Positions 1,130 through 59,900 of a stretch of DNA of 64,000 nucleotides are shown piece by piece. This DNA is from Tribonema minus (taxonomy: Eukaryota > Sar > Xanthophyceae > Tribonematales > Tribonemataceae): NCBI GenBank assembly GCA_017506865.1, contig JAFCMP010000057.1:1178001-1242000 (forward strand), read 5' to 3'. A model generated the notes under the pieces. It worked only from the letters and a program-made list of their open reading frames with translations, made no database searches and was not told the DNA's origin. The position numbers were made by a program, and so were the translations under genes. How positions within the stretch are numbered: position 1 is the first letter of the stretch; every line of letters begins with the position of its first letter.

Positions 1130-4100
1130 ATGCGCGAGGCGCGCGCAGCAGTGCTCATCCAGCGCATCTGGCGCGGCCACGCGCAGCGGCGCGCGCTCGC
1201 GCGCCTGCGCAAGTCCCGCGCGGCGCGGCGGCGGCGCGAGCGGCGCGCGGTGGCGGCGGCGGCGGCGGCGGCGCTGCAGCGCGGCTGGCGCTGCGCCGTC
1301 GCGCGGCGCGCGCTGGCGCAGCTGCGGCACGGCATGCACGCCACCGTCATCCAGGTACCTACCAAAAGCAGGATCTCAGGTGATGGTTCGCACTGGCTGT
1401 TTGAGAGGCGTGCCAGCGGGGGAGGTCAGAAAGGCCACGCATTACTGCAGCAACGGTGGCGGCGCTGTTCATGGTGCTTGACTTGCGTGCCTGCTGAGGA
1501 CGTCAGAGAGGTCATGCAGTACTGCAGCGGCTGCGATGCGTCTCGGCGTGGCGTTGCAGCGCTCGGCACCGCCAGCAATGCACCATGATGACCGCCTCGC
1601 TCTTGGCGACTTCCCATTCATCCTCCTTACGCATCAGTGGCTGATGTGTTGATCGCGGTGTGCTTGTGTACGCGCCGCTGTCGTCCCCGTGAGCAGCGGC
1701 GGTGGCGCGGCGTGCTGGGGCGGCGCTGCGCGCAGCACCGCTGGCAGCGCGCGGCCGCGGCAACGGCGCTGCAGCGGCGCGTCAGGGGGTGGCTCGTGCG
1801 GCGCCGCGCGGCGCGCGCGCGGCAGCGGGAGGCCACGCTGGTGCCACCAGCGATACGCGTGCAGGTAGGCGCCTGTTCTGATGTCGAAAATAGGTGCATG
1901 TACCGCGCTTTGTGGATCCGCAAGTAATTGCTGGATGAAAAAGGGGGCCTTGTAAGTACGGCAAAGGGTGCGCAGGAATCCTGCAGTTGGTGCCGCTGTC
2001 TAAACGTATATGGGCATGAGAGGGCAACGTGCATTCCTGACCTGTTCCTGCTGGCGGCTGTCCGGACCTTACGCCAGATGTGAGTTTGCGTGCTTCCAGC
2101 TGTGGCGTCGTGCAATAGACAAGGTTCCCTGGACCCATGCGTGTGCGTCGACGGCATCTGCATGCGCAAACGCGCAAGCGGCCACATCCCAGCTTCTGCA
2201 CACGAGTGACAGCTGAGGTCTGCCATGCCTTGACTGCACAGCCCGTGCAGTGGCACGGTCAGCTGGCATACCGCTGGGATGAAAACGTGGTACACGCGCA
2301 CAGACTGTGCCTGGCCTTGCTCACACACACCCTGTAGCACGCGCAACTGCCCAGTCACGTCCAGCCTCGGACGCACGCTTACACTCCCCACAAAGCGCTG
2401 CAGTCAGTGCGCGGCAATCGCTTCACGCCCTCCCCCCCTCGCGCCGCGCAACACACAATCATACGAACGCGCAGGCGCGGTGGCGCGGCTGGCTGGCGCG
2501 CCGCGCGGCACAGCGGCGCCGCGTCGAGACGCGCCGCGCGCGCGAGGTCCGCGGCGCCGCCGCCCTTGCCGCCGCCGCCGCCGTGCAGCGCGTCGCCGCC
2601 GCGTGGGTGCTGCGCTGCTACGCGCACAGCGACGGCAGCAGCAGCAGCGGAGCCGGAGGCGGAGGAGGCGCGGCTGTCAGGTCACAGGGCGCGGCGGCGG
2701 CGCGCGGCGCGGCCTGGGAGGGCCCGCTCAGAGACCTGTTTGACGCGGTCGCCAAGGGCGGGAGGCTGGACGGCAAGGGCTTTGCGAAGATACTGAAGGC
2801 GGCGCCGGGGCTGTTCCGGCCGGGGGCGTTCACGCCCGCGGACGCGGACCTCCTGTTCATGCGCACAAAGGTGAGGTCGGGGGGGTGTTGTAAGTACGTG
2901 GGAGGTTATGATGGAGGTGCACGGCGGCGCGTGCGCGCGGCGGGCGGCGGCGGGGCCGCGCTGCTGTGTGCGGTTCGTCGCATGCAGTGCCCCTGGTCGA
3001 GGATAGGCCTGGTGCCTCCAGAGTGCGTCGATGTTGTTTTGTGCGTTCCCTACTTGGCTGACGCTGAACCTGGGCCTGAAGCTTGTTGCGGAGGCGCACG
3101 TGAGCATACCCAGCCAGCCCGTCTCCTGCGCGCCGGGAATATGCGTGGCTGTAGCTGGTTGCTCCCCCCCCCCCCACCGCCATCACCTCCCTCCCCCCCC
3201 TTGCCACCCCCCCTTGCCGCCATTGCGCCCCGCAGGGCGGCAAGGACGAGCGCACGTGAGCATTCCCAGCCAGCCCGTCTCCTGCGCGCCGGGAATATGC
3301 GTGGCTGTAGCTGGTTGCTCCCCCCCCCTCCCACCGCCATCACCTCCCTCCCCCCCCTTGCCCCCCCCCCTTGCCGCCATTGCGCCCCGCAGGGCGGCAA
3401 GGACGAGCGCACCATCCCCTTCCCCCTCTTTGTCGACGCGCTCGACAGGATCGCCGCGCAAATCTACCCCAGAGCGCGAACACATGACGCAGCGCCGCCG
3501 CGCGTCAGCGCTCGCCAGGCGCGCCTCCTGACCCTCGCGCTCGGCCACGTGCTGCGCGGGGAGCTCGGGCGCGCCGCGATGGCGCCGGCGGAGGCGGCGG
3601 CGGCGGCGCGCGTCGGCGGCGCGGCGGCACGCATCCAGGTCAGAGGCGCCGCGATATCGCTTTCTGCCGCGCGCTGCCACTTGAGTGCACATGTGTCTTG
3701 AATGGAGGCAGCTATAGAAGTCGCCAGTGGCGGGCGATAAAGATACCGCGAGATGGCGTTTCGCCGCTTGGGTGCACATGTCGTCGATAGGCGGGCAAGC
3801 GCTCCTGCTGTGGCAGTCGCTGGTGGTGGGCGATTGAGGTCAGAGGGGGCGCGAGATTTGCCTCCTGATGCTGGGGCGGCCGAGCTGGTAGTTGGCGTCA
3901 GGGGTGGTGGATAGAGTGCGGTGACGGGGAAAGATACGTAATGAGGGGTTTGTCGATGGCGGCCGTGTGTCTGCCTGAGTGCCTGGGGAGTCATGCGCAG
4001 TCGGGGGGGCACGGTACGCGTGCGGGTCAGAGAGGGCGCAAGATTGCGCATGCTGATTTCGGGCAAGTGGTCCCACTCAGTCGCCGAGGGCGAGCGAGTG

Positions 4101-7100
4101 CGATGTTTGGTATCGGCGCCGCGACAGAGCACACATGCTGCGGTGGCGCTGTTGGCGCGCGTTGCCCTTGCATGCCGGGGCAAGTCACCCCGCGGGAGCA
4201 GGCACTCGTAGCAGAGGGATGGGGTCAGGGTCGGGATGAGATCCTGATGGCGGCGTGACAGCGGTATTGTGGCGGCACTGTCTGTGCCCGCTGTGCTTGC
4301 GCACAATCGTGGTGGCATTGTCTGCGCGCTTGCAAGTGCGCATGAAGAGAGAGCTGTGGGTGTCGATTCATGCCCCTGTCTCACCGGTCGTCACGCTTGT
4401 ATGCCGACAAGCACCTGCAGTGCATTCGAACCGCTGGATATCACATTTGCATATTTAGGCACTTTGGGCCTGGACCGCACACTACGTACATGTGAAGACG
4501 CTCTGACCGGAGAGGCGCATGACCAGCTTTGCTGGATTCCTGTGTTTCTCAAAGGCGAAGCATGTCACTCAGAACCATGGGCTGATGACAACAACGCTGC
4601 ATATATATCACGTACACATTCAACAGCAGCATTGGAATTGGTGAAACCAATGGCACTGTAGCAGTCACGATGTACTCTGGGATCATTACCGGCTCTGCGT
4701 CTCGTGTGCTGTTGTCGCTAACGATGCAGGCGCTGTACAGGGGCGTCATCGGGCGCCAGATGTCACTGCGGCGGCAACACGAGCGCAGCGCTGCTCAGGT
4801 ACAAGTGACTCAACCGCCTGGATCAGAGCCATCGCTCAGGTTGCTGAACCAGTTGCTTGAGTATCAGGCATTTGCTGATTATTGTGCAACTCCAGTGCTG
4901 CTCGCTCTGACAAGAGGCACCAGATGCGCTTCTCAGCACTCAGGCGGATGTGCCGTCCTGACCGTAACTTAACCCTAACCCTACTTAATTCTAGCCCTAA
5001 GCAGCAGAGTGCACAGGCTCTCTCGCGGATGGCACCAGCGCCAGGTGCCAATTGCGGCATGGGGCGCAACGAGACTCTGACTGATGACTCTGAGTGATGG
5101 CTGCAGCGCAGTCTGCCGTGAATACGCTGTGTGCATCCTGCTTCGATAAGCTCAAACCGCATGCTGTTTCGCAGATCTCTGCTTGTGACAAGATGTTACC
5201 CAACACATCACAAACAGGCAACGTTGTCTGAATCGCAGAGAGCTGCTGACCCCCCCCCATTCAGGTCCCCACTTGGTATCTGTGTACTTTCCTTGCTTCA
5301 TGTCTATCCTTTGTACTCAAAGCCCCCCCCCTTTTTCCCCTCTGTGAGCACTTGTGCTCAGCGCGCCTTGCTTGCATCTCACCCAGCAACAGCCAGACCA
5401 GAAAGCACCGCTGCGACATTCGCAGCGTGCGAGGGCCACGATCAAGTTGCATCCCACCAACAGTAGACTTAGGGCTGGGGTTAGGGTTAGTGTCTGGTGA
5501 AGGCGAGGATTAGGCACTCGCTGTGGAGCGCGCAGCTGACTCAGTAGACCATAAAAACGAATTGCTTGCCCGCTCAGCCTATGCTGTGATGTTGTCTGAA
5601 CAATTGCACCCCGCGTATGCCGCCGCCTCCCTGATTGTCACCGCAGCTGCTCGCGAAACGAGCGGCGGCGGCACTGCAGGCGCAGCGCGTGTGGCGCGGG
5701 TGGCGCGCCCGCCAGCGGACGCAGGCATTGGTGAGCGCCTGTTTGCTGAGCACTGCTAGAAATTCTGCTGATAGTATTGACATGGTGCTGCGCGTGTTTG
5801 AATGATCTTGACATGCGTACAACACCTGATGCGAGTCATAGTGCGCGCTGTGCGACTGCGCTGCAGTGCGTGCGGGGTTTGAGGTGAGGGGGTTAGGGGC
5901 AGGGTTACGCATACGTACCTACCTTGGGAGAAGCGCGTCGACCCGCACAGGGGCTCAAGGCGCCGCCAGTCAAGCACCAGCAATGCACCATGTATTTTGC
6001 TCCTTCGGGTGCTCTTTCAGGCTGCGGGTCCGATGCACTGTTCACTGTTGGCTCTTCAGGATTCGCAGTCAAGTCTGCGTCATTGGTTGCCAGTATCCCG
6101 CTCCAGTACGTACCTCCACCAATGGTCACCCGCCACTCCACTCATGCACACGCCACGGAAGCGTTCCGCATCAACATCGCGCGGCGCTTAAAGCGGTATT
6201 GGCACTAGCCCATGCACCACACACTCTGCCCCCCCCGCCCCTCCCCCCCCGAATGATCTACCAGGCGCAGATGCCACCATCCCATTTACCCCCCCTTCCC
6301 CCCCCCCCATTCCCCTTCCCCTTCCCCCACCTCCCCTCCCCCCCGCTCGCAGTCCCGTTCCCTCTACAAGAAGTACATTGAAGCAGGCTCGAAGCGCCCA
6401 TACTGGTGCCTACGCGACGACGGCGGCGCCGCCGTATGGGCCAAGCCGCGGAGCCTAGGGCGCGGCGACGTCGCGCGTCCCGTGCCGCTGCCCGTGCGCC
6501 GCGAGGAGTACCTGCCGCGCTGCAGCCTGGGGCGCTGCCGCCGCCGCGGCGGTGGGTGTTGCCTCTCTGTGTAGTCTTCATGTTGGAGTATGACCGACAA
6601 TTGTGAAGTGGGCGCGGCGACGTCGCGCGCCCTGTGCCGTGAGGAGTACCTGCCGCGCTGCGGCCTGGGTCGCTGCCGCCGCCGCGGCGGTGCGTGTTCA
6701 CGTGTTTGTGTATGCTTCAGGTTGAAGTATGAGCGCTGCCCGCGCGCCACGAGGAGCGCCTGCCGCGCTGCAACCTGGGGCGCTGCCGCCGCGGCGGCGG
6801 CGGGTGTTAATGCATCGTGCAGTCTTCATGTTGAAGTATGACCGTCAATCGTGAAGTAACCACGGCAGCCTGCGTCACGAGACCACCTTGCCTCCATCAC
6901 AGATGTCTGCCGCGCTGCAGCCTCGGGCGCTGCCGCCGCCGCGGCAGCGGGTGTTCGCACGCGCAAAGGCGTTTGCGCGTTCTTCACATTGATGTATGGC
7001 CGTCAAGTTAGCAGTGAGCGCGGCAGCCAGTGAGAGCGCCTTGCCTCCGCCTTGGGTGTCTGCGCCGCTGCAGCCTGGGACGCCGCTGCTGCCGTGGCCA

Positions 7101-8997
7101 TGGGCGCCACGCACACATGCTACAGATTGCATGTAGAGCTCAAACTCGGGCATATTTCTGGATTGACGTCAGACCATTCGTTGTTTGAATATGGAATGCG
7201 GGGCGACACACAGCACCTTGCCTTGATCTCTGATGTCTGCTGCGCTGCTGTCTGAGGCGCTGCTGCCGTCGTGGCGGCGTGAGCCGTGGGCACGCAGAGT
7301 TGTCCGCGGTGCATTTGACGTCGACATCTATGCCCTGTCACCAGGTGCATTACAATGAACACGTTGAAAAATGCGAGCGCAGCAGCTGCCCAACCCCAGA
7401 GGCAGGCTTTCCGCACATGATACGCTGACTCATGGAGCCCGTGCTCAACTGCACATGTACCGAATGAAAGGCCTTGTGCAGGCGTTCCATGGACACTGCG
7501 CTTACTACTACTTAGACTCACCCGGTTTCAACAATGATGCCCATGATGAACATGCTGCAATTCCGCGCGCAGGGGACGCCGCCGTCGTCGCCGTGGTGTG
7601 CGTACCCTGCGGCGACAGCTACTGCGCGGCGTGCTTCGACGCGCTGCACCAGCGCGGGGCGCGGCGCGCTCACGCCAAGGGGGGCAAGCAGCCAGTGTCG
7701 CACTGCGTCGTGTGCCAGTACCAGGTGCGGCAGAAGCGCGAGCGCGATGCGTTGGTGCTGTGTGGGGCTGCATGTGGTACAAGACATCTGTGAGCGTCGC
7801 CACTTGCCCTTGCGCCAACTGTTGGCATAACTTCTCTTTGCATACTGCATAGTCCACCCCTGTATCGTGCCGGGCCAACTCTTTGCAAAGGGGAGACGAT
7901 CAGTTCTCGACTCTGGTTGGTAGGCGCTGTGTAGTATCATGTGGTCCTCTTGCAATCTGAGTGGCAGCGCTACTCAAACGCCGCTGCCAATGCGCACGCA
8001 TGCCGTTCCGCACCGCAGCTGGCTACGCGCGTGTGCGGGACTTCGCACACTGCAGCGCTTGCAATTGGACAATTGATTGATTGTCGCACGACAGCGCCCA
8101 CTTCACCCTCTCACTGCGGCGCATTGACAACGATCGATTTCCGTGTTCGCGCTCCCGCACCGTGCAGCTGGCCACGCGCGTGTGCGAGACGTGCACGCTG
8201 CGCCGCGGTGGCGGCGCGCGCCGCCGGCAGCACTTCTGCGATGTCTGCTTCTTCTTTGAGCACCCCGCGCTAGACCCTACCGGCGACCCCCTGGAAGCGG
8301 AGCTACTGGCCATAGGGGGGGCGGGAGATGGGGGAAAGGTGCGGAAAGCGCAGGGTTCGGGAGTGTCGGGCGTCTGTGACGAGTGCTAGGTGCCACGTTT
8401 GCATTTGTCAATCTGCTTGTCTGCTTGGCGGAATCGCATGTTGAGCCGCGGGAGTGCTGCGCATGCGCTCACCAATCAACAGTTCCAGAGCGGAACCACG
8501 CGCTGCCGCCACACGGCGCCGCCCCGCCCTGGCACGCAGCGCTGCCACGGCTGCCGTACGTCTGCCAGCACAAACGCCCTCCTGACCGTCACTGCAAGCT
8601 CTGAGCGGCGCGTCCACGTATCGCCCTAACCCTAACCCTAACCCTAAGCAGCACCTGTATGGCTCGGCCAAGCTATCACCCGTTCTTCGCCCCTTTCACC
8701 TGCATGCCGCAGCGTCGTCGTTGGTCCGCGCCTCCGCCGCGTGCCAGACGCAGCAAAGGGCATCACCATTCCAGCAGTGCGCACACGCGCGTTGCGCCGC
8801 CCGCCCCGCACTCACGCGCGCGCGTCACTGCGCCTCCGCACATCCGCCATGTGCCCCAGGGCCATGTCTGGAGCGCCCTCGTTGTCGCGTGCGCACACTG
8901 CCGCAGGCTCGCGGCGCGCTGGCTGTGCGGCGCGTGCGGCGGCGACGCGCTGTGCGGCGCGTGCCTGCAGAAGGTGCACGGCGGCGCCGGTAGCGGC

Positions 8998-9028: not shown

Positions 9029-12000
9029 GTGGCGGCGGCGGCACGGCGCAGCACGACCCCGCGCACCTGTCGTACTACACGATCGCGATGCACATGCAGG
9101 TATGCGTGTAGGCAGCTGTGCTGCAGTCCGCTGAGGCGTGATGGATGCCAGCTGCGCGTGGTGTGCGTACAAGGACATTGTTGCCATGCGGTACACCCAT
9201 TGTGCCAACGGCGATGCATGCATGATGCATGGTCTGCCAAGACTGCTGGCTGCAACTGGGTGAGCGCTGTCACCGCGCCAGCTGGCGTCATTCACGTTCG
9301 ACCGCTCTCCACCAATCCCTGCGTTTGCGCTCCGCGACGCCCTGACCCTCGGGCGCCAACCAGGTTTGAGCACTGACATGTGCGTACTAGTCGATGTCAC
9401 TAACGTATGCGCACTAGTCAATGACGCTGACATCTGCATACTGGTCAATATTGCTGAGCGCTGCCATGTGTGCGTGTGACACGGCTCAGGAGGAGGAGGA
9501 CCGCCTGGCCGACGTGCGCGCTGCGGACCGCGAGCGCCGCCGCGTTCAGAATCTCATCGGGCGCGACGCCGCGATGCGCAAGGTGCGTTTGCAGGAGTAG
9601 GTGTGCTTCTCCACCTCTGCAGCAGCGGTGCATGACTAGGGTTGCCAAGCGGCTTTCCGACTCGACCTTTCGACAGAAGATTTCGAGGGCTGCGTTGACT
9701 CCGTCACGGCCATCCGCCCGTGAGCAATTAGATGTATACTGCAACCTCAAATCCGCGATACGCGTCATTTGCTACATGCATATTGGGTTCCTCTGCGCAG
9801 GGTTCATGATCCTCATTGGATCCTCCTGTTCAGAGTCAAGAAGCTGATGATGTGGTCCCGGGCTCCAGCTTCAAGCCCTAGGTGCAAGCTTTGAGTCAAA
9901 ACCCTAAGTGGAGTGTCACCACCACCCGCATCAGAGCATGCACAAATACAAGATTGACAATAGCAGCTGTGCCATCAGCATGTCCCTTGGTAAACCCAAT
10001 GTTACAGCGTGCTGCGCAACCTACATCTCAGAGCGCTGAGTGCTGCCGCCTTTGCCCCTGCGTGACACCGCTTTGCAGGCAGCGGTCACGATACAGCGCT
10101 ACTGGCGCGGTTTCCACGGGCGGCGCGTCGGTGGCGAGTTCATACGGTGCGTCACACGTGCGGTAAATGTTGAAGTATACACCTTCCGGCTGAGCATCAC
10201 CGCGGACATGAGTGCCACAATGCACACTGGCCTTGAGAACAGTACCGCACGTTAGAGTTGCGCTCTACATGATGTAGAGGTTCGGGGATCTGTAAGCGTG
10301 CAGGAGAGGGCACGTCACTTGTTGAAGTTACCCCAGAACAGAGGACTGCGCCAACGGTTAAAATCTGAGCACACCGATGCGCAGCACCTTGAACACAGCT
10401 GTCTGGTAGACACAGAGCGGTGAGTCCGCTACATTGGTGACGTTATGGTGTCGGCACACTAGTCAGCATTGCTGACACATGCACACAGGGGGGAAGTGCA
10501 GGCTACGGCTACAAAAGCAGTGTTTACCACGTCCCCCTCTGGGTTGCCTTTCTCTGCATTCACCTTCTCTGCATTGATCAGAATTGGCCTGCCTCTCAAC
10601 ACCCCGTGTGGTGAGCGCTGGCGTCAGAGAGCACACGCACACGATAGCAGCATGCCTATGAGCGGTTCAGCAGCGCGTTGTGAGGGGAAAATGTCGCTCG
10701 GGCGTGCTTCAGGCAGATACTCTCCAATTCTTGAACTTCAGATCACCAAACCAGTACTCTGCTGCTGGATGTCACGTGCAGCACGGAGCGGCGGCGGCAG
10801 CGGCGGCTGCAGCAGCTGCGCCGCAAGCAGGACAAGCAAGTGCGCTGCAAGCTGTGGTACAGGTGAGAAGATAAACTTCAACTTCAAGTCGGTCAGTTGC
10901 GCTTGGTTGCTTGTCCACACGCATGTGACAGGTGTGGCGGCACTGCGATGGCGATCTTAATTCCGCGGTGTACATGCAGACACTGAAACCGGCCCTCACC
11001 TTGAACCCTCACCCCAATCCTACCCTGAAGCCTCAGACGACCTTTCATATTCTTACGAGTGCTCCAGCATGATCTGAACGCGCTGCTGAGTTCTCTCTGC
11101 AATGCCAGCCCTTCTAGTGACGGACGCAGCGTGCGTGCGCGTCAGAAAGTACCGACTGCACGCCCTGTGCGAACACCGCACGCCATGCAAACAACACTCC
11201 CGCCCGCTTGCCGCAACCGTCTGCACCCCCTATCCAGGGGCCTGGACACCCTGGGCCTGGCGCCCGCGCTGGAGTCGGACACGTTCCCCGAGAGCGTTCT
11301 GCGGCGCGTTCCGCGGCACCGGCGCAGGCGCGCGCTGCGCGTCATCGGCCTCAACAAGGAGGACGAAGGGTGGCGGCAATCGAGCGCGGAGGCGGAGGAC
11401 GGCGCCGGCGGCGAAGACGCACCGGGGCCGCCGTCAGCGCTGGCAGCCACGGGGTGCGCGCCTGCGTCTGTGTGCATATGTGCAGATCAAGACCCGCTGG
11501 CGCAGTATTGAATGAGGATTGCGGCAGGCATGTGCCTGCGCGCTTCGTGCGTGTCTGGACATGCCAGCGACGCGCGCCTCGGGCGTGTGCGCGCGAGGTT
11601 GTTGATGCGGCGGCAAAATTGCGGCGCTGGCGGCGAAGACGCACCGGGGCAGCCGTCAGCGCTGGAGTCCGCGGGGTGTGTGTCAGCGTCTGCGTGCGTG
11701 CGTGCTGTGCAGGACGCGTTCGCATCTGTGTGAGATGTGTCGGCACAGTAAGTAAACGAGTGCTGCGGCAGGCGTGTACCTGGGTGTGACAGCAACGCCT
11801 CGGGCGTCTGTGCGCGCGAGCTTGCTGTTGTCGCGGTGGCATCACGGCGACGACGACGACAGCGTGCAGGGGCAGCCACCAGCGCTGGAAGCCAAGGGGC
11901 GCGTGTCTGCGTGCGTGCGCGTGCGCAGCGGAAGATGCTTCGGCGTACGGCGTACGCAACGCCGCGGCGTGCGCGCGCGTGAGCCAGCGATGGGACGCTT

Positions 12001-39900: not shown

Positions 39901-41230
39901 ATTGGCTGATGCCTTCGGCGATATGCTGCGGATCGTGCAGGACACACACCGTATGCGTGTAAGGAGCGTTGACGTGACGCGTGGCGGCTCTGCTCAGTCA
40001 TGTCGTTGCTTGGCGTGTGCGCGCCCCGTTCCCCTCATGGATCTCAAGAATGCACGCTGGAATTGCAACTTCATTAATGCACTTCAACGTGACGCTGTCG
40101 CTCACGCCCGACGAGCGCTACCGTCATGTCTGCCGTCATGACTGATGAGGCGTGAAGTATGCGCTGCTTCCATGCCTGTCACACGAACTGCTTCGAAGAA
40201 GCTATACCTGCGCACAAACCATTTCCGAGGGACATGCTTCTGAAGTAGCTGAAGTAGCTGAGGTGTGTGGCTGCCTACCATGGGGACATGTGGCGAGTTA
40301 TGATGATGCGCACCGTGCGCATTCCCCAAGATCTCAGCGTTCACAAGAAATGGCGCCACTAACCGCATGCAGCAACAGGTCCACTGTGTTGCCTGCCTGT
40401 GCCTGCCTGCCTGTGCCTGCCTACCTGCCTGTCTTTTACCTTTCCTTCAAGCCCAAGTGACCGGTGCTTGCGACAACACTGTTGTGTCCTCTGCCGGTGT
40501 CATCTGGTTCTCTGCGAAAAGCACTTCAGCAGCGAAAGATAGCGCCGCGCACTCTTGTATACACTGCCAGCGCCCTGATCTCCCGCCCTGATGCTGCGCG
40601 CAACTGCCTTGAAACAGGAGCTCGGCGCGATGGGCTTCGCGATCGCGGCGTACCCGCTGACGCTGCTGAGCGCGAGCATGCGCGCCATGCGCTTTGCGCT
40701 GCAGCGCCTCAAGGCCGGCGAGAGCTGCGACGACCTGCTGCTGCCCTTCCAAGAGGTGCGCATGCAGCGCGAAATGTGTCGCGCGTATTGCCTGGCAGCA
40801 TGGAAACGAATCAAAAGATCGTAGAGCTCTAGGTGACACGGTGTGGTTAGCCGTCGAATTGAATGCCTTCCACCGATAGCCGTGGGCGCCGCTGCTGCGG
40901 CAACAGGCCATGAGTTGTTTGCATGGCAGCGCTCTGATGGCGCACTGCTGGCTATGGCCGACTGCACTGCCCATGGTGGATCTCGATTTGTGTACGCGAA
41001 GCACGCGGATGCCGTGTTGGTGCACGCGACTGCGTGTCGTGCAGCATTGCGCTTCAAAGCGCAGGCATGGCTTCCGCATGGCCGACTGCAAACACTTGAT
41101 GCGCATCATCATGCGCGCTTCTTCTCGCCTGACCTAACGACGTGCTCGCTCGCCTCCTTTGAACAAGCAGGTCCAGGCCGGCGTCGGCTTCCCGGACTAC
41201 TGGGCGGAAGAAGATCGGTACCGAACGTAG
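36906..41230 (+). CDS. Plastid-targeted isocitrate lyase/PEP mutase-family lyase
   Basis: Seven exons in phase: 36906-37163, 37533-37786, 38306-38387, 39139-39255, 39487-39591, 40618-40755, 41171-41230; 337 aa. Residues 1-~23 form a signal peptide ending ...NPCTSF-SPLP, followed by a basic, Ser/Thr-rich stretch, a bipartite leader for a complex plastid. The mature part resembles plant chloroplast 'carboxyvinyl-carboxyphosphonate phosphorylmutase' / petal death protein: MTGFGVSASHGFPDT, metal-binding IGDGDTGYGN, IEDQVSPKKCGHTRGKD with the lyase catalytic Cys, LILARTDARG and GADIIFLE. Enzymes with this KKCGH signature cleave 2-methyl-malate-like or oxaloacetate substrates, so a C-C lyase is likelier than a true PEP mutase; the substrate is not predictable. 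Exon 38306-38387 uses the second of two overlapping GTs, since the first would cause a stop. Confidence 0.93.
39049..39118 (+). repeat. (TCAC)n microsatellite and C homopolymer before an acceptor
   Basis: About six TCAC units (39049-39070) are followed by a C run of ~20 bases (39096-39116), 20 bp upstream of the acceptor of lyase exon 39139-39255. Confidence 0.85.
39634..39758 (+). mobile_element. Dispersed ~120-bp repeat, copy 1
   Basis: It starts with GCACTGTTTGACTCGTGGCC and ends with GAGCTCTACGATCTTTTGAT plus TCGTTTCC. It lies in a lyase intron. Copies 2-4 are at 40801-40920 (minus), 43731-43853 (plus) and 56330-56400 (minus, partial). Confidence 0.85.
40801..40920 (-). mobile_element. 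Dispersed ~120-bp repeat, copy 2
   Basis: This inverted copy of the 39634 repeat lies 46 bp after lyase exon 40618-40755. It shares the tail GAGCTCTACGATCTTTTGAT and the middle GGTGGAAGGCATT block. Confidence 0.85.
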
Positions 41231-45100: not shown

Positions 45101-48056
45101 GTATGCGCATGCCTGCATACCCCCTTCCCCCCCTGCAGATGATGGAGCCCAACATGCTGCAGGTGCACCCGCCGATACCGCTGTCGCTGTCCATGCCCGC
45201 CATGAGCGGCAGCAACGTGACGTCGTCGCCCACCACCAGCGGCAACACCACGCCAGGTGCGCATTCAGCGTTGGGGTTAGCAGTAGGGTTAGGTTAAGGG
45301 TTGGAGTTAGAGCTAGGGTGATGCCGTGCGTGCGTCAGGGCTGTGAACTTAGGGTAGAGATCACGCGGGGTGCACGCAAGAACCAGGATCAGGGCTAGGG
45401 CAGGCGCCCACCACCAGCGGCAACACCACGCCAGGTGCGCAGTTAGGGTTAGGGTCAGGATCAGACATAGGGTTTAGGTTAGAGTTTGGGTAATGGTGAT
45501 GCGGCGCGCGCATTAGGGCTGAGCGCACAGGGCCAGCATCACGCGGCGGGCGCGTTTGGGGGCTGTGTATTTAGGTTGAGGTTATGCAGAATGCACGCTA
45601 GGTGTAGAGTTTGGGCTAGGGCAGGTGCGCATACGCCGCCTCAGCGTTGCACGTGTGCACTCGTCGCACATGCAGAGCATGTCGCAGAGTGTCCCTACGG
45701 CATCAGGTTTCAAGCGCGGTGCTTTTCTTCAGACAACACCTACGGGATGCCAGACAGACCGGGAAGCACGCCACACCTCAAACGTGAAGGTCCTGTTGAC
45801 CACATTCCCTGCGCCATAGCCAATGTGACCTATGGACTGATGCCGCCTCACTCTCAAATCGGCACCTTGTGCCAGGCATGTCGCCGCTGCAGCCCCAGCT
45901 GCGCTACACTTCAACAGTTTTCTGTTCCTTGGAGAGCGGGCTAGGGGGCGTGTTAAGTGGATTGTTGAAGTTTTGTGGTATGTTGAAGTTATATGGAGCT
46001 TGTGCGCAGACTCGGATGCCATGTTCTGATTGAGCCTGGAGTCGTCCTCGCTGGTCGTACATGCGGCACCACTACTTCGCAACTCACAGCATCCACACAT
46101 GCTGCAACGGCCGTCGCCGTGCGCTCGCCTGCGCACACTCAACATCAACGTGTTGAACATGTGCGCGCACATCAAAGGTGAATATTTGCGCACATCCTCC
46201 TAAATTGCCCCCCCCCCCCCCCCCCCCCCCCCCGTGCTGCGCATACCCCCCCCCCCCCCCAGGCTACCTCATGAGCCGCGTCGGCACGGGCAGCTTCGAC
46301 GGCTTTGGCAACCCGCACGTGATCGCGCACTCCTCCTCTTCCTTCGAGTACATGGACGGCGGCGGCGGCGCGGCGCCGCTGCCCGCCGGCGCCTACTACG
46401 CGCTGCCCCCCGGGGGCTCGCAGCAGGTGGAAGAGCTCAGCAACTTAAGGGGCGGCGCGCCCAAGGCGGAAGCGAAGGCGCCAGGCGGTGGCCTGTATAT
46501 GGGCGGCGGCAGCAGCAGCGGCGGCGGCGGTGCCGCCGCCGCGCAGGGCAAGGGGGAGGCGGCGGGCGCCGCTGGCGGCGGCGGCGGCGGCGACGGCGAC
46601 GGCGATGGCGGCGGGGCGAGCATGCGCCTGACGGTGGAGGTGAGCGCGCCGCGGATGAGCGCTGAGCTTGGGCTTGCTGCTGCGGGGTGCGATGCGCGCG
46701 CGCCGCGAGGGGGGAAGCACGCTAGCAGCAGCAGCAGCAGCAGCAGCAGTGCTCAGCCACACACAGGCGCGGCAGCAACGCTCAGGCATCACCACAGTGT
46801 GTACGGCGCAGTACGGATGCAGCGCTGCCGCAGCAGCGGGAGGCGGCGAGGCGGGGGATTCCCGGGGGAAGGTGGCGCGCGGCGCTGATTGGCGGGGGCG
46901 CAGGGGCACCACGGGCGGAAGCGCTGCTGACTCAAAAGCGCAACTGCATATACTTTGAGGTCATGCGTTAGGGTGGGAGTTGGAGCTGAACCCTAACCCT
47001 AGCCCTAATCGGTAGATACGCAGGGCGGGGCACTGAGGTGCTGCCCCCCCCCGTTGCATCAGCCACACAATGGGGCGGCGTGCTTGCGTGGCGGCGGCAG
47101 TGGCGGCTGCGCAGACTCGTGTGTGTGAAGCACCTGCCCAGCTGCCGGAATTGAATCATCTACATGCTGGAGCTCTTGAAGGTTCTCATGCTGTGGGGCG
47201 CCTGGCGCAATACGCGGGGTTCATGCGATGCGTAAACTGGTTTTGGAAGCGCGCACGAGGTGCTTCGCCGTAGACCCGCTGCAGTTGCTTGTCGAGCGGA
47301 GCGATGGGAATAATGCAGTGGTCAAAGCACGCGCCTGCTCATCTCGCTGTGGCTCTGCTGCGGCCGCGCCTGCAGCAGCAGCAGCCGCTGCTGCTGCCGC
47401 CGTGCCCGCCCGCGCATGAGCAAGCACCACATTCCAGCAAACCCATGCAGCTCTTGCGACTGCTGAAGTTGCCACCGCCACCGGCTGACACGCTCAGCAG
47501 TACAAAGTTTGTTGCATCTTGCACCCCTACACCGCCGCCAACAGCTCTGTATGCATACCTTTTGCATACCTACTACGGTCTCAACCAACAACGACGTCCG
47601 GCAGCCTCTGATCACTCATCGCCCCTGCGCTGTTCCATGCATGCGGCAGCGCTCACCCCCCCCCCCCCCCCCCCACCCCCCTTCCTCGGCGTGCAGGTCC
47701 CCTCCGGCGAGCTCTCCGACCAGGAGCTGGAGCGCAACATTGCGGACATCATGCACCTCTCGGGCGCGCTGCTGGAGGCAGTGGACGCGCACGGCGGCGG
47801 CAGCGGCAGCAACGCTCAGCTGATGGACCCCGCGGCGCCCGCCGACGAGCAGCCGCAGGACAGGGGGCAGGAGAAGGGCAGCGGCGGCAGCGGCGGCGGC
47901 GGCAGCAGGGGCGGCGCGCCGCTGCAGCTGTCGATCACGGGCACCGCCGAGTCGGTGCAGCTGGCCGAGTACCTGGTGCAGACGCGCCTCGCGCGCTCCG
48001 CGGCGGCGGCGGCGCAGCAGCAGCAGCAGCCGGCGCTCTCCCCCGCGCTGCACTGA
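41924..48056 (+). CDS. KH-domain RNA-binding protein (PCBP/NOVA-like)
   Basis: Five exons in phase: 41924-43202, 43879-44120, 45139-45256, 46263-46639, 47697-48056; 791 aa. The N-terminus is rich in Gln (CAG tract near 42101-42165) and Pro. KH1 (~289-332) has VLIPNAKIGAVIGKGGAIVK with GxxG = GKGG and SGARVTISD. KH2 begins at ~412 and is split by intron 1: LISSAKAGALI then GRAGATIKAIRDASGARIDIS, with GxxG = GRAG and a Gly/Pro insertion of ~25 residues. A third KH-like fold (MRLTVEVPSGELSD...IADIMHLSGALLEAVD...LQLSITGTAESVQLAEYLV) is split by intron 4 and lacks GxxG, so it may not bind RNA. KH proteins of this type bind C-rich or YCAY single-stranded RNA and act in splicing, stability or translation; which one applies here is inference. 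It follows the lyase gene on the same strand. Confidence 0.87.
43731..43853 (+). mobile_element. Dispersed ~120-bp repeat, copy 3
   Basis: This copy ends at CGCTCTTTTGATTCGTCTCC, only ~25 bp before the C tract and acceptor of KH exon 43879-44120, so the repeat abuts a working 3' splice site. Confidence 0.85.
44074..44345 (+). repeat. Duplicated exon end and donor in KH gene
   Basis: The last ~47 bases of exon 43879-44120 (TCGGGGCCGTTCACGGCGTG...CGCCAGC) and the GTGAGTG donor are repeated 220 bp downstream at 44287-44340, nearly identically. Confidence 0.92.
44848..45440 (+). repeat. Acceptor and donor copies flanking KH exon 3
   Basis: The start of exon 45139-45256 (CAGATGATGGAGCCCAACAT) has upstream copies near 44852 and 45035 (MAEPHHAA-like, MEPTVLQVRT-like). 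Its end (CACCACCAGCGGCAACACCA plus the GTGCGCA donor) has a downstream copy at 45406-45436. One exon is thus flanked by arrays on both sides. Confidence 0.88.
45270..45500 (+). repeat. Degenerate TTAGGG repeats in KH intron 3
   Basis: Many GGGTTAG, AGGGTTAGG and GGTTAGAG strings are interspersed with copies of the upstream exon end. Orientation is TTAGGG on the plus strand. Confidence 0.85.
46204..46262 (+). promoter_or_regulatory. C-homopolymer polypyrimidine tract at an acceptor
   Basis: Two C runs (about 25 and 17 bases) separated by GTGCTGCGCATA precede the CCAG acceptor of KH exon 46263-46639. Confidence 0.8.
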
Positions 48057-49718: not shown

Positions 49719-52700
49719 ATGCCTCGTGCTGTACCGACCGCAGCTGCTCTGGCGCTTCTATTGTGCGCCCCCCTCCACGCGTTCGTGGTCACGTGCCCTG
49801 CTACGACTCTGGCAGCAGCGCGTCAGGCATCTGCGCCGATTGGACGCCAACGCCAAACACAAAGCTCTGGGATTAGCCCCAGGATGTCTTCCACATCAGC
49901 TACTGAGCAGGATCAGAAGCAGGTACGCACCTGGTCCCAGCCTGGTGTCTATCAGCCATTGTATTGTCGCAAGCGCAGTCGATCTTTTTCCAGGTTTAGA
50001 ACCTTTTTGAGTCAGAGCAGTAGGCCCTGCATGATGCCCCGCTGTGTCGTTGGCGCTCCTTGCGCATGCCCATCTCTGAGTCGCGCAACGACTGCTGCTT
50101 GTTGCACTCACTGAGTGCCGCTTCTCCAGCTGCTGTTGGAACCAGCTTACTTTTTTTGATGATCTACACGTCGCCCTTATTGGTGTGGTGCGCCTGCTTG
50201 CTTGGCCTCATGCAGACGCTGCACGCCTCAGAAACGGGGGAGCCGAGCGTGACATGGTTCGAGGGGAACTCCTGGCTATGGACCATCGGCGGCGTCACTT
50301 TCCTGGTGGATCCGATTTTCGACACGCTCGACTTCGGCATGCCGTACTTCTACAAAGCTGACAAGCGGGTCTTCAGCGACTACAGGGTAAGAGTGAAGAG
50401 TGACGCAACTGATTCCCCCACAGAATTGCGCTTGATTGCATGTGCTTAGCAATTCTCCCATCCAAGGCCTCTTGTGGGGGAAGAAGGCAGAGGTCACAGG
50501 AATGAAACTACAAGAGCAACAGTTTTGCAAGAGTGGCATTCCATGGTGTGCTCCAGATGACGCCGCGTGACAATGTGCTGCACGTTCACATTGCACATCC
50601 GTGGCAATCAGCAGGGGTGACTTCAACTTGCCACCAACGCACCGCTGGTGCTGCCTCCAACTGTTCTCTGCTGCACGCTCTCTCCTTCTCCTCTCTCGTC
50701 AGCGCTGCTCGCAGCTGTCATCCACTGCCCCTCAAGCTTCGACTCACTCGCCGCTTGAATCTACCATTGCAGGCGCTGACGGAGCGGATGGCGCAGGAGG
50801 CGGAGCACATCGTCATCACGCAGGGACTTCCTGATCACTGCTGCGAAAAGACGCTGCCTAGGCTGGCCAAGCTCATGAAGCCCACGGCGCGCGTCATCGC
50901 GCCGCCCAGCGCCAAGGACATTGTATCGGTGCGTCACCCGTGTCTCTGCCGTTTAACTGTATAAAACTTCAACTGTTGGTGATGACCACCTCTACCTGCT
51001 TCGGACGCGCCGTGGCAGTGGCAAAATGTATGTTTACGACGGCCTGAAGGGCAGCCTGTGCGTCATCCCTAGCAGTGAGGTGCTGTTCCGGATGCAAAGC
51101 ATCCATGCTGGCATGACGCACATCACTTCAATGTACAACAATGTCAAAATTCAAGTGTAGTGGAAACTTCGAATTGTAGTGAAAAATTCAAGTGCAGCGA
51201 CGCGACGCTCCAACCACGGCACATGCTTGTGCACTGAATCTACTTCAGCCGCCTAGCAGCAGGCCTTCAGCGGATCGCTCTGTCGGCGATTGCATCCGCG
51301 ATGTGACACTTCGCTCGGCCTCAATAATCGAAGCCTTCAGCGCACATGCGCGCCAACTGCGCATGCGTGTGCGACACGCACTGTGTGGATGAGGGGGGGG
51401 GGGGGGGGGGTGTCAGGCGTGTCCTACTGAATGCAAGTAGCGCCCGCACGTTCTTTGGCGGGTGTCGGCATCTGTGACCGCCGATGCGCATGCCACTTCA
51501 ATGCGTGCAGTGCGCTCGGAGGACTGCGATTCGATGCAGCACTGCCGGTCTCTCGCTGCGCGTCAGTACGCGCCGGCTTCAAGCCTGAACCCCGTGCAGC
51601 AAGCAACGCTGCGCAGCCGCCTAGCCCTAACCCTACATAGTCTGATCCTAGCATACATCTATTTTTCCACCTCCTACTGCCTTTCATTGGTGCATCCTGC
51701 CCACCAGTACTACCAGTTCACCATGTGCCTCATGCCGTGCGCGTAGCCCCAATCTACACAAGGGTTAACTTCAACTGCTGTTGGCATTGTGCTCTCTTCG
51801 CCAAGCAGCGCTTCTTCCCAGACGACCGCGTGACATATGCCAAGCCTGGTGACAAGGTGGTACTCAAGGGCAGCGGCGGGGAGGTGGAGCTGGCGGTGAT
51901 GCCTGGCTCAGTGGTGGGGCCGCCGTGGCAGGTACGATACGGTATGCATGAGATGGTGTGGCACCGTGGGGGACGGGGGGGCGGGGTGCATGAGGGAGTA
52001 CTGGGGGGGAGGAGGGGGGTTATTTATGAATGAGGAGGTGGAGCTGGCGGTGATGCCTGGCTCAGTGGTGGGGCCGCCGTGGCAGGTATGTATGGTGTGC
52101 GCGAGGAGTTATAGTCACTATACTTGGGGGGGGGGTATATGACAAGAATGGGGCTGCCGTGGCAGGTCTGTTGTGGTGTATTTGAGGGACTGGCAGTAAC
52201 TTTACTGGCATCGTTTGCTTGACGGGGGGTGGTGATGTATACACGAGGTGGCGCTGGCGGTGCTGAGGTGCTATAGTCATGATACTGATATCGTACGCGT
52301 GTTTGGTTGTTGGGGGGGGCGGGGGTCATGTATGACGAGGAGGTGAAGCTGGCAACGCTGCCGGCGTCCGCAATGGGGCTGCTGTGGCAGGCCTGGTATT
52401 GTATGCATCTGAGGAGGGGGGGGGGGGGGCATGTGAGTATATCATACATGTCGAGGGGGTCTGTATAGATGAGGAGGAGGTGGAACTGGCGCTGCTGGGA
52501 TCAGCGGCGGGGCCGCCATGGCATGTAGGGTATGTAGTGTGTGGGGGGGTAGCCATAGATGATAATATGGCAGGTATACGCACTGTGTGGGGGGGGCGCG
52601 CTTGTGAGGGAGGAAGGCTAACCCTAACCCTGACCCTGCATCGTGCCAGCAAGGCAAGTGTTCTGCACGCATGCACCCTGTCTCAAGCAGCAGCAGCGGG

Positions 52701-55068
52701 CTGCGGCTGGTGCTTGAGCGATGGGGGGCGGGCGGATGGGGTAGGTATAGATGAGGGCACGGCACGTCAATGCTTGGGCCGAGTGTGCTCGCATGAGGAG
52801 ACGGCTCCACACGCGCCAGCAAGGCAGGCGACGAGTGCGCACACGCTCTGTCCTGCGCCCTGTCCTGAGCAGCGGTGTGCTGCGGCGTCGCGTGAATGCG
52901 CGGTGCGGGCGTGCGCCGCCACTTCAAGTTGAAGTATGTGCGTGCAGAGGCGGCGCTTGCTCTGCGCGCCGCGCTAGTGGGCGCCGCCGTGCCTGTGGCG
53001 CAGGGGCCTTTGCATACAACAGTTGTCGTGGCCGACAGCCAGGGCACGCGCGGGGCTCCACTTGAACCGCCTGCGCGCCGTAATTGTGGTCACGCATCGG
53101 TTTGTGTGCTGAAACGTGGCAATTGCGTGAGCGCCGCAGAGCGCGCCACCTACACATCAGCATTACGGATCGGCACACTGCAACGCTGACCGGCACCACC
53201 GCGCCAGCCGCCCCCCTTACCGAACTCCGCTGCCACAGCAGCTGCTGCCGCTGCCTCATTCAGTGAGTTGCAGTTACGAACGCTAACTGTTTCATTTGCA
53301 TACATACCCTGGCCTAGTAACTACGCTGTCAGGCAACTCAAGACCTCCTTCTGCTACCGCTGCTGCTGCGGCCGCCGCCGCCGCCGCTGCTGCCGCTGCT
53401 GCTGCTGCCGCTCTGCGACAGGCGCCCGAGAACGCGTGCCTTGCGCGGCCGCGCGGCGCAACGGATGGCGGCGTCTTCTACGAGCCGCACTGCATGTGGT
53501 CGACTAAACATCTCCTGCTGCTGCCACTGTCAGGCAACTAAAGATCTCCTGCCGCCGCCGCCGCTGCTGCCGCTGCTGCCGCTCCGTGACAGGCGCCTGA
53601 GAACGCGTACCTGGCGCGGCCGCGCGGCGCAACGGATGGCGGCGTTTTCTATGAGCCGCACTGCATGTGGTCGGAGGACGCGATGCGCAGCGTGCGCGCG
53701 GACGCCATCGTTACGCCGACGTACGGCCAGCGCATGGGGCCGGAGGCGCTGCACTACACGATCCTCAACAGCGGGTGCGTGACGACAACTACTTAGATTG
53801 CAACACTCGAGAGTGAAGCAGGACTTGGTCTCTGGCATGTGACGTGTACTGATTGTAACATGTGACATGCACTGATTGAGACGCCATCGTTACGCCCACA
53901 TACGGCCAGCGCATGGGGCCGGAGGCGCTGCACTACACGATCCTCAACAGCGCGTGCCAGTTGCTCTTCGTTGAAATGAACGCACGAGTCAAATGTGATC
54001 CGGGAGTGCACGCTGAACTATTGCGTGAACAGTGGGTGCGTGCGCCGGGAGCAGCAATCGCCAGGAGGCACAGGCGCACATTATAGGGCGCGAGGTTTTG
54101 GCGGAGAGACTGCGGGCAGGAGCGTTGCCATCACTTGAAGTTGTTGATGAAGTTGTTGAGTTGCAGCGCTGGGCAGTTGTAGCAGGGCTTGAGCTGCTCG
54201 GCAACATTCGCCAGGAAGGGTGCATCATCTGTTGGCGACGCACGGTCGCAGCGCGCGTGGCATCGCTGCGCAGCGCTGCGCCGCAAAGCGTTGAGCTTCG
54301 ACGGCGAGAGGGCGCAGCAGCAGCGCCTGTGCGCGCTCGCTGCGTCATTTCGGAGCGGGGCGTGCGCTGTCTGCGTGTGCAGAGCAGAAGGCGCTGCACG
54401 CGATGGTTGTTGCATGCTTGCGGTCGTCTTGAGGCTGGTGCATGCGACCCGAACGTCAACATGTGCGTGGTGGTTCGCTTCACCTCGTTGTGAGGGCCCT
54501 GACACCTTGCGGTCACAGACTGAGGTTGCGGCGATGGCAAAGTGCGCCAGCGCCAGTAAAAGCTCCTCGATTGACTGGTTCAAGCTTTGCTGTGCTGGCG
54601 CATGCTGCGTGCGCATAACGGTTGCGCAAATGCCGCCTCGTCGGCATCACCAAGCCCCACACCGCGAAAGGCAGCACAAGGCCGGGAAGCGTTTTCAGTT
54701 CTCAGCACTGCGTCGGCTTCTCGCACTCAGGCAGCAGCGATGATGAACGTGTCTAATGCGGCATTCGAGCACCTAGCATGAGCATGAGGCAGCATGCGTG
54801 GACAGGATGACGCACGGGCGCCACCTCTTAACCCCCCCCCCCCCCTCTCCCCCCCTCCCCCTCCCCGTCCAGCGAACGCGCGGTAGAGCTGGCAAAGACC
54901 GTCGGCGCGCGCCGCATCATCTCCTACAACAACGTGGACCAGGAGTCCACCGGCGTGCTCAACCTGATCGTCACGCGCACGGGCGATGCGGAGGAATTCG
55001 CGCGCCTCGCTGCGAAGGCAGGCATTGAGTACGTGCAGGTGCAGCCGGGGACGCGCGTGGCGCTGTGA
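49719..55068 (+). CDS. Plastid-targeted metallo-beta-lactamase-fold protein
   Basis: Six exons in phase: 49719-49922, 50216-50386, 50773-50928, 51809-51931, 53593-53774, 54873-55068; 343 aa. Residues 1-~20 form a signal peptide (ALALLLCAPLHA) followed by Phe and a basic, Ala/Ser-rich transit-like stretch, predicting a complex plastid. The body matches plant and cyanobacterial MBL-fold proteins: VTWFEGNSWLWTIGGVTFLV DP (core strands, here split by a space), IVITQGLPDHCCEKTLPRL, RVIAPPSA, RVTYAKPGD, GVFYEPHCMW, IVTPTYGQ and a last exon starting ERAVELAKTVGARRIIS. The usual HxHxDH metal motif is replaced by TQGLPDH, a known variant of this subfamily, so ordinary two-zinc hydrolase activity is doubtful. 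Substrate unknown. Acceptor 50216 is chosen because it keeps phase 0. Confidence 0.9.
51880..52530 (+). repeat. Array of exon end plus donor in MBL-fold gene
   Basis: The end of exon 51809-51931 (GAGGTGGAGCTGGCGGTGAT...GCCGTGGCAG) is repeated almost perfectly at 52030-52085 with a GTATGT donor. More diverged or partial copies lie near 52147-52166, 52240-52265, 52335-52391 and 52475-52526. Each unit also carries a GGGGGG run and a TATGTATGA-like string. Confidence 0.9.
52617..52638 (+). repeat. Short CCCTAA run in MBL intron
   Basis: The string CTAACCCTAACCCTGACCCT lies inside the 1.66-kb intron, directly after the splice-site array. Confidence 0.8.
53417..53960 (+). repeat. Both ends of MBL exon 5 duplicated into flanking introns
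   Basis: Exon 53593-53774 has a ~95-bp copy of its acceptor and start 177 bp upstream (53417-53510, with ACAGGCGCC and GGATGGCGGCGTCTTCTACG). It has a ~75-bp copy of its end 180 bp downstream (53880-53956, with GACGCCATCGTTACGCCCAC). The flanking TCAGGCAACTAAAGATCTCC string is repeated too. Confidence 0.92.
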
Positions 55069-56937: not shown

Positions 56938-59900
56938 TCAGTCGGTGTGCGGCATCCTGTACATGTCGAGGAAGTTGGGGTTGTACCTGCAGCAGATCTG
57001 CGCGCGAAGGCGAGGGAGAGGGCGGCTGAGTGCACAGCACGCAGGCGGGCGGTGAGATGCTAAGGCTGCGTCCATGGCATGTAGTTCGGGGCACACTGCG
57101 TAACCGCGCGCTGCCGTCACCGGGTCATTGAGCAACAGCGCCGTGTATCACACGCGCCGCACGCAGGACGCCCAACACAGAGATAATGATTCGTGATTAA
57201 TGGAGAGACGGTATGTTCGCAGCTAGGGACTGGCTTGATGTGTGTGCGTAAAGTGCTCAGCGCCCTTCCTCATTCTTTCTGAGCAACAACTGGTGCAGAG
57301 TGGCCAATGCTGCCGTGGCGCGCGTGGCGTGCGGCAGCGCTCCACCGCAGCGCGCTGCGCCTCTCTCCGCACGCGTGCACACGGACGAGACGGCGGGCGG
57401 CGCACCGTGCGCACGGCAACACGAGCTGAGCACTACCCCGCAGCAGCAGATGGCGGCAGCGACGCCGTGCCCATGTATACATTGCCAGCGCCCCCCCACC
57501 CCCCCCCTGACGTACGCACCTCATTCGCGTTGCGGCACGCGCCGATGGACGGCGCGACGCACTTGAGCGCGTCGACCTTGTCGGCGAGCGTGCGCAGCGC
57601 CGCCGCCCTCTGCGCCTCGATCGCGGACAGCGCGGCGTTGCGGCGCGCCTGCGCCGCCTCGTCGCTCTCGTCGGCGCCGGGCGGCACGCCGAGCGCGAGG
57701 GCGCGCGCGTCGCGCCAGCGCAGCTCGAGGCATGTCAGCGCGTCGCAGGTAGCGACGCACGTGCCGCCAACGTCGTCGCAGGAGGGCGCGCGCGGCACGC
57801 AACAGACCTGGCGCACGAGAGCGGAGGGGGGGGGGCGGTGTCGCGTAATCAGCAGCGCTCAGAATGAAGGATGGGTGGTGTCAGCGAGCGCAAGTGGGGA
57901 TTGTCTCGTGATCAGCAGCGCTCCGCATGATGGTACAGCAGAGCGGCACGCGCCGCCGACGTCCTCGCATGAGGGCGTGCGCGGCACGCAGCAGACCTGG
58001 TGCACGCAGGGGGGGGGGGGCGGTCAGTGGTATGATGATGACACTGCGTCCGACGTCCGACATCCCAGCGAGCATCTTCTGAACCTCTGCGAGTACTCGA
58101 AGGCATGGCACGCATCGATTTTAGCCGGGCTGTGCCCACAGGCCTCTCATGTCACAACAAACACGCCATTCAGCAGCGGCAGATGCGGTATCATTGGCTG
58201 ACCTTGCCGTCGTCGCAGGCGCCGTCCGCGACTGAGCACTGCATGTTGGACAGGAAGATCTTGCGCGCGGTCACCGCGAGCCGCTTGCAGCCCTTGGTGC
58301 ACGCCACGCAGTCAGACACGCACCTGAGGGCGGCGCAGCGGCAGCAGCAGCAGCGGCAGCAGCAGCAGGTCTGAGCTTCACTTGCAGAGAGGTATGGCGG
58401 GCCAGCAACGGTTGAAAGGAAGCAGCATGCGGTGCTCGGCTCACTCAGAAAGGAGGAGCGGAGTCGCATGTGCACACTGTTCGGCGGTTGGAGCACAGGA
58501 GCAGCGACAGCAGCACACGGTTATATACGCGTTACCTGCCTGGCGCTCAGGGATGCCTCATTGGCGTGCATGACAGTTGACGCAGTGGCCGCATGCACGT
58601 GCGCATATGCAGCAGCATTGTGAGGCGCTCAATGGCATTTTCAAGACTTCAAAATACAATCAGCTGCGCAGGTGCAAAGTGCTGGGTGACCTCAGCAGCT
58701 GCGCACTCAGGAGTGGCCGTGGCGGGCTGCAGTGGTGCACCGTGTAAGGGGCCTACAGCTTCTCTGCGCGTCAGCTCGATGTCCAGCGAAGTGCATGCTT
58801 GTCTGTGCTCAGGGTTGACTAAGGGTAGCTCTTGCTCGCAGACGAGCCGTCGCCGGTTGCTTTAGGCCTGCCAGTAATGGTTGTGTCTGTACTTATTAGG
58901 GTTGCTCAGGCACACAAGGCACAGTGTCTACTTTGCACCTCGTTGCTGCACGAGACGCTGGCCTAAGCTTGGTGGGCGTTGAGCGCCGCTGCCATGTGCG
59001 ACTTACGTTCCGCCGAGCTTGTCGCACTGTGGCGCGGGGCACTGGTCGCACGAGGCCTGTGGAGAGCGGCGGCGCAGTCGCGCACAGTGAGAATGCTGTT
59101 GATTGTGCACTGCAAGGCAGCGGAGAAACTGTGCCGGCGGCGCTGCAGTCACTCGCCCCTGCTGCTGCGACACGCCATAATCGGCAGGTCGCACGGCAGC
59201 GCGCGCCGCCGTTGTGCGGTTCGGTGTCGTGTGCAGCGCTTTCAGTGCAACTGCTGCGCTCGGATGAGTGCATGAAGCATTTTCAGGCAGTTGCATGCAC
59301 CAGGACCAAATGCCGCTGCCATGATCCCTTGCATAAACTTCAACACGTGATGCATCTCGTGGCAGCCAGATTGGAGGCAGAGGCGGGGGTTCGGTGCACT
59401 CTGCCAGTATTAGGCTTTGATGAAAATCAGCAGACAAGAAGTAAGAAGTGTTGGAGAGTGGATCACAATAGATTCTATTTCGAAGTATCCTAAAGAGGAA
59501 CTAAGCAAAGCTGCAGTCGTGCAAAGGCTCAGCATTTGCACATTTCCAAAGACGGCACTTTGGGTGTCGTGTCTGTTCCGTTCGTGGCCTAATGTTCACA
59601 TCCAGACCGCCACAAGGGCAGACCGTCGCACGTAGGCAACAAGGCGGCAGAGCACTATGCGAGAACCGCAACAGACAAGGCAAGCTAGCAGCCCTTCCTT
59701 GCAAGACATTGATCCCTGTCGCAACGGAGGCCACTTACATCTCCTCCGATGGTGGTTGCAGCGACGCAGTCCGGCAGATTCTCATTCCAGCTGTCATCAT
59801 ACTGTAGAAGCAGATACAGAATCAGCGAAGCAGCAAAGATACACGATGGCGCGGTGATCGACCGTATGAGTCTCGGAACCATGTTCCCAACAACGCGATG

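Follow-up and report, generated by a model that had tools for sequence, protein, structure and literature searches.

This study concerns a 64,000-nucleotide stretch of the Tribonema minus genome (C57:1178001-1242000, on GenBank contig JAFCMP010000057.1), hereafter referred to as the window, in which the edges of exons and their splice sites are repeated within the adjoining introns. The window belongs to an assembly of 158 Mb in 554 contigs (designated here by C and a number), and its GC content is high, at 56-70% in 2-kb steps. The genome encodes an FCP-type light-harvesting protein and contains CCCTAA-type repeats. Gene models (designated by G) were generated with our own codon-usage gene finder, which was trained on 6,550 codons from Pfam-matched stretches (GC at third codon positions, 0.85) and builds models with GT-AG ends and open frames. 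When 10 exons were compared with Pfam, five scored above the family cut-off (kinase twice, KH, PEP mutase, and B-box), one scored below it (beta-lactamase fold), and four had no match.

Exon-Edge Arrays in the Window

A self-BLAST of the window yielded 37 direct repeats that were less than 2.5 kb apart. An earlier reading of the bare sequence, termed here the sequence-only reading, had claimed that exon ends with their splice sites are copied into the adjoining introns of six genes and had listed 13 such intervals. All 13 were recovered, each holding a donor or an acceptor, and alignment to the gene models placed 15 junctions of six genes, namely, 10 donors and 5 acceptors, within these arrays. 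In a strict search, one to five copies were found per junction.

In G1, on the forward strand, the acceptor at 3393 (array 3094-3412) has an upstream copy, 3094-3255, of the segment 3250-3412, which corresponds to a clean 163-bp duplication with a period of 156-157 and 98% identity. Five intronic copies accompany the G1 donor at 6551 (6492-7277), namely, 6630-6697, 6740-6807, 6907-6954, 7039-7104, and 7237-7277. The acceptor at 8168 (8008-8201) has a copy at 8008-8053 of 8155-8201, and the donor at 11453 (11400-11925) has two further copies with a period of 222. G3, on the reverse strand, carries arrays at the donors 24025 (23665-24073; copies 23960-23908, 23845-23789, and 23721-23665) and 25781 (25623-25821; copy 25669-25623, with similarity stopping 6 nt into the intron). 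At donor 33548 (32726-33594) of the kinase gene G4, also on the reverse strand, the copies 33392-33340 and 33000-32946 include the junction, and 33189-33162 and 32767-32726 consist of the exon part only; the G4 donor 34427 (34121-34501) has copies at 34383-34358, 34309-34227, and 34155-34121.

The KH protein gene G6, on the forward strand, contains a copy of donor 44120 (44068-44347) at 44287-44347, in which the exon part matches at 51/53 positions and similarity stops 8 nt into the intron; the spacer of this array is also present in a paralogue on C148. The G6 acceptor 45139 (44849-45186) has upstream copies at about 45030-45084 and 44853-44910, and the copy of donor 45256 (45227-45554), which starts at 45405, matches at 30/30 exon and 81/120 intron positions. 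In G7, on the forward strand as well, donor 51931 (51880-52532) has copies at 52034-52088 (exon part 52/52), 52336-52391, and 52476-52532; acceptor 53593 (53374-53673) has an upstream copy, 53374-53502, composed of a pyrimidine tract (42 nt of the acceptor tract), the AG, and 81 nt of exon; and donor 53774 (53701-53957) has a copy at 53880-53957 with an exon part of 71/74 and similarity stopping 4 nt into the intron. The G8 acceptor 57807 (57757-58024), on the reverse strand, has an upstream copy at 58024-57946. TRF detected two of the 15 junction arrays at roughly the period of the array itself (3094-3414 and 6483-6768), and one more of its rows, 44904-45022 with a period of 58, lies inside the array of the G6 acceptor 45139.

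Occurrence in Other Parts of the Genome

The proposal that such arrays are general in the introns of this genome holds in 34 other stretches selected by gene family, where local duplicates extend across 45/174 Pfam-supported junctions, compared with 11.2% of deep non-exonic positions. For the curated junctions of the window, the corresponding values are 15/78 and 8.0%. The share of junctions with an array is about a fifth to a quarter, not all. The window plus the 34 merged stretches (249 kb) contain 120 local arrays, of which 86 include a predicted junction, compared with 45.8 +- 4.7 under random placement; the figure of 86 is inflated, since the gene finder sometimes scores intronic copies as exons (e.g., C5 353397-353552 and C135 208580-208185), whereas the curated window counts are unaffected. 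In the window alone, 15 of the 19 arrays hold a predicted junction, and 6.8 were expected by random placement. Arrays contain junctions more often than random placement predicts. A single random 10-kb stretch (L076) contained two local duplicates, one of them across the start of a predicted exon. Whole-genome Pfam searches returned 56 Cpn60 and 132 kinesin matches, and at least six extra partial matches were seen by eye to have the same exon start or end as a neighbor (C5 353415; C51 21979 and 22169; C135 208473; C246 701357; C511 562024).

One explanation of this excess is that tandem duplications arise at random, with no preference for junctions and no conversion, and that coding constraint alone makes the junction arrays visible. 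Junction-spanning duplications should be tolerated, place the new copy beside the exon, and remain recognizable for longer, as one of the two copies is held by coding constraint. Some of the excess, together with the polarity described below, would follow from this. However, when random tandem duplications were simulated and submitted to the same detection, using indels, ages, and unit sizes of our own choice, 33% were junction-spanning (28% from geometry alone), compared with the 86/120 and, for the window, 15/19 observed. The simulated exon parts had quartiles of 43/71/103, whereas the observed donor-side parts are shorter, with 31/41 measuring 30-75 nt and only 2 being longer. A purely neutral origin of this kind is regarded as unlikely, although several properties of the copies agree with it.

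Offsets, Decay, and Drift of the Copies

Over all loci, the nearest copies at 84 junctions have a median offset of 150 bp (5-95% range, 92-279 bp). Among the 32 junctions with multiple copies, the first copy is nearer to the exon in sequence than the last one in 23 cases, with 6 reverse cases and 3 ties (Wilcoxon p=0.0014). The decay of copies with distance from the exon that had been noted earlier is therefore true on average, as would be the case if new units were always added at the exon.

The sequence changes in the copies resemble those of neutral sequence. In 69 of 87 aligned pairs the copy lies outside predicted exons, and in these pairs the exon-part mismatches are distributed 67/52/137 over the codon positions, which fits the comparison of a neutral copy with a constrained exon. 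The GT is kept in 34/41 and the AG in 20/28 of these copies, which is near the neutral level, and the offsets modulo 3 are 27/22/20 (29/32/23 for the 84 junctions). Among 82 nearest copies, the offset is divisible by three in 29, and the frame would be left open in 6 if the copy were used. The codon-position pattern, the random frame, and the dinucleotide retention are all in line with purely neutral duplication.

The copies nevertheless retain splice site character. Donor copies score a median of 6.3 bits, which lies between the values for all GTs (-1.7) and for true donors (8.8); the GT is kept in 72/90, and 49/90 exceed the top-5% threshold of all GTs. Acceptor copies reach 1.3 bits, compared with 5.7 for true acceptors, and keep the AG in 47/59 cases. 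That the arrays create decoy splice sites, as had been claimed, is supported by these values. The fair strength of the donor copies would also suit a role of the copies as exons used alternatively or in mutual exclusion, or as decoy sites maintained by selection, but such a role is very hard to reconcile with the neutral codon pattern, the near-neutral retention of splice dinucleotides, and the random frame, and is considered most unlikely. An intact frame combined with coding constraint, as for tandem or mutually exclusive exon duplications, was not found in the copies. The inner copies are read here as drifting, non-coding decoys at which splicing presumably does not occur. The idea that the copies are cassette exons, each bounded on the left by an AG, was likewise dropped, as inspection by eye revealed no consistent AG at the boundaries.

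The motif ACTTCAA/TTGAAGT is concentrated near the start of introns, with 17 and 13 occurrences in the first two 25-nt bins, compared with 2-9 per bin in the next ten. It was considered as a feature of copy boundaries and rejected, since it is present at 3/69 inner and 1/69 outer boundaries against a background of 2.1%, which represents no association.

Lengthened Introns in Paralogues

Paralogue comparisons support the claim that arrays lengthen introns. The plastid Cpn60 paralogues on C511 and C516 have five equal exon lengths (236, 238, 141, 300, and 207) and five introns in common, which are of differing length. These shared introns sum to 2,434 bp in C511, with 116 bp in repeats, and to 6,098 bp in C516, with 3,103 bp in repeats; when all introns are considered, the values are 2,434 bp (116 bp) and 6,743 bp (3,587 bp), respectively, every local repeat being counted, whether junction-spanning or not. 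Such repeats account for the larger share of the additional intron length in C516. Another example is that of the LHC paralogues on C1 and C79, the exons of which are about 90% alike. Three arrays, two of them at predicted acceptors and the third at a donor, are found in C1 and none in C79, and a matching intron measures 966 bp in C1 and 660 bp in C79. The C516 Cpn60 gene (L065) also has an extra intron, 695202-695846, that is absent in C511 and has exon-edge repeats on both flanks; it is a candidate for intron gain or loss.

Insertion of introner-like or other mobile elements at junctions, with long target site duplications, could also have produced the copies, and dispersed repeats do occur in these introns. 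However, when the array segments 51880-52530, 44121-44290, and 53700-53990 were searched genome-wide, using a search that passes over simple and very common words, they matched only themselves, plus the KH paralogue in the case of the second, and none of the three gave dispersed near-identical copies at unrelated sites of the introner type. On the evidence of these three segments, mobile elements are a highly improbable source. As to the dispersed repeats themselves, about 197 bp of a G3 intron (22900-23097) match at least 40 places on other contigs at 78-86%. An element of about 115 bp, present at 39643-39759, 40799-40915 (minus strand), and 43742-43851 as well as on C5, C51, and C516, sits 28-52 nt from predicted splice sites, and two sites on C7 match the segment 56047-56163, with identities of 82% and 92%.

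The arrays might also be artefacts of the assembly, in which 8 kb of C70 are 99.94% identical to C489. This pair (L072/L073), which reflects either redundant contigs or a very recent duplication, is uninformative on the arrays. The copies differ from each other by substitutions and indels, as results from drift, and paralogous arrays have spacers in common, which makes an artefact extremely improbable.

Spacer Homology and Possible Gene Conversion

The spacers between nearest pairs were found to be homologous in 48/78 cases (z of at least 4). This suggests that the units are mainly tandem duplications across the junction, and such tandem spacers are also what purely neutral duplication would leave. 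A separate class of exon-only copies had first been drawn from truncated alignments; flexible alignment found homologous spacers for several of its members, so that the class shrank to 16/78.

These 16 pairs could be explained if splice junctions were mutational hotspots, where breaks or template switching would copy exon edges into introns and the spacers would partly be filler. Among them are the donors 25781, 44120, and 53774, at which similarity ends 4-8 nt past the donor. The hexamers TTAGGG and TTGAAG account for 3.4% and 4.2% in donor spacers, compared with 0.8% and 2.0% in copy-free donor starts. The homologous spacers of the 48 other pairs argue against a hotspot, and the exon-outward orientation of telomeric motifs failed a control with composition-matched hexamers, which have a similar asymmetry, and in perfect runs of 10 nt it was not significant (Fisher p=0.45). 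A hotspot is thus judged improbable, and filler derived from telomerase or chromosome healing was rejected on the same control and the same test. In non-coding sequence of the window and the loci, the telomere-type TAACCCTA occurs 85-fold, and AACTTCAA/ACTTCAAC 17-23-fold, over Markov expectation.

The exon-derived and intron-derived parts of the units differ in their persistence. In the 56 pairs with an exon part of at least 90% identity, the intron parts have a median identity of 0.68, compared with 0.87-0.91 in neutral simulations, and 34% of them are at background, compared with 4-9% in the simulations. In 23 copy-copy pairs, 43% of the intron parts are at background, compared with 16-23% simulated. 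The intron parts are too diverged given the exon identity, and neutral duplication leaves unexplained how well the exon-derived parts persist in comparison.

Information on the history of one array comes from the KH paralogues. Over 299 alignment columns, the G6 segment 44056-44345 (exon tail, spacer, and copy) matches C148 118196-118483 (copy, spacer, and copy) at 81%, which points to an array older than the paralogues. Nevertheless, four of the C148 copies resemble their own exon at 92-98.6%, and at one diagnostic site the G6 exon and its copy have one base in common, whereas the exon of C148 has another in common with its four clear copies. This pattern would be accounted for by gene conversion from the exon, at which these data, a thin case, hint.

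Proposed Mechanism of Intron Growth

We consider it probable, with some reserve, that these introns grow by serial tandem duplication of segments that straddle the junction, likely with gene conversion from the exon. We infer both the duplication mechanism and the conversion from sequence comparison. A typical local duplication would take in the splice site together with 30-75 nt on its exon side and about 40-175 nt on its intron side, and would lengthen the intron. The outermost copy, attached to the exon body, would remain the working splice site, and the inner copies would become intronic, drift neutrally, and be left as decoys. Each fresh duplication that includes the exon edge would move the older copies inwards, which would produce the mean decay with distance, and junction-spanning arrays would outlast purely intronic ones because their exon-side copy is constrained. 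The exon-derived parts, which are held nearer to the exon than drift permits, would most likely be restored time and again by gene conversion, the exon being the surviving donor.

Of the earlier idea of intron growth anchored at junctions, the growth and the over-representation of arrays at junctions stand, but a mutational anchoring is unsupported, and splice site targeting of the duplication itself does not follow from the present evidence.

Several observations, in addition to the chosen settings of the simulations, weigh against growth by junction-straddling duplication with conversion. The coverage by duplicates rises across the last 50 nt of the exon and is then rather flat for ~250 nt into the intron, without a sharp peak at the junction. 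Copy-copy distances are 0.74-0.79 of the summed exon distances, which indicates shared descent and no pure star. Spacer homology is undetected in 16/78 pairs and doubtful in 14/78, and the former include the G6 donor 44120 and the G7 donor 53774, whose exon parts of 96-98% without spacer homology are not what plain tandem duplication gives. For conversion, the evidence comes from a single paralogue pair and, in essence, a single diagnostic site, and the pattern is not followed at another variable site (ATT/ATC). The G6 segment also aligns, less well, to other C148 units (68% and 76%), so that the orthology of the copies is a best-match assignment.

A more far-reaching possibility, which is put forward tentatively and which we believe somewhat less than we doubt, is that the intronic copies are genetically anchored to the exon edge. 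The exon would repeatedly overwrite them by conversion, selection would remove reverse conversions, and this neutral process would keep permanent near-perfect decoys around many exons, with introns growing outward from their junctions genome-wide.

Relation to Known Systems and Significance

The introners of Micromonas and Aureococcus are dispersed elements that create introns. They resemble the present arrays in causing a mass change of algal intron content, but the copies described here are local and gene specific.

Three published cases share further features. In the potato RdRp gene, a tandem genomic duplication crosses an intron-exon boundary and carries splice signals, as here, but it represents one event that gave a new intron, whereas in T. 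minus existing introns lengthen at a fifth to a quarter of the examined junctions, with up to 6 copies (PMC4974935). In Drosophila, introns were gained when an AG/GY proto-splice site within an exon was duplicated in tandem, which is likewise a local duplication with one exon-derived copy intronised; in that case, exonic sequence is duplicated and the length of the duplication is that of the new intron, whereas the unit found here is part exon and part intron and requires no new intron (PMC2891723). Polyubiquitin genes contain arrays of dual-specific splice sites, which are also serial sites within tandem repeats, but those repeats are coding and used in splicing, unlike the inner copies described here, which appear to be non-coding and drifting (PMC10809524).

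With the model of intron gain by duplication of AGGT-containing segments, the arrays share a local direct duplication that includes splice site sequence. A new intron between two copies was not found in the window, where the copies lie inside an intron that retains its outer splice site. The literature searched contained no report of introns in which serial exon-edge arrays are a common state.

To our knowledge, intron lengthening without transposons is poorly documented, and this single genome offers many intron growth events, for which the less expanded paralogues serve as controls. For annotation, the arrays mean that intronic copies score as coding, and our own gene finder called some of these copies exons. 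Furthermore, true and decoy sites share the exon edge and the consensus, and these introns may therefore provide a natural test of how the spliceosome chooses the outermost site.

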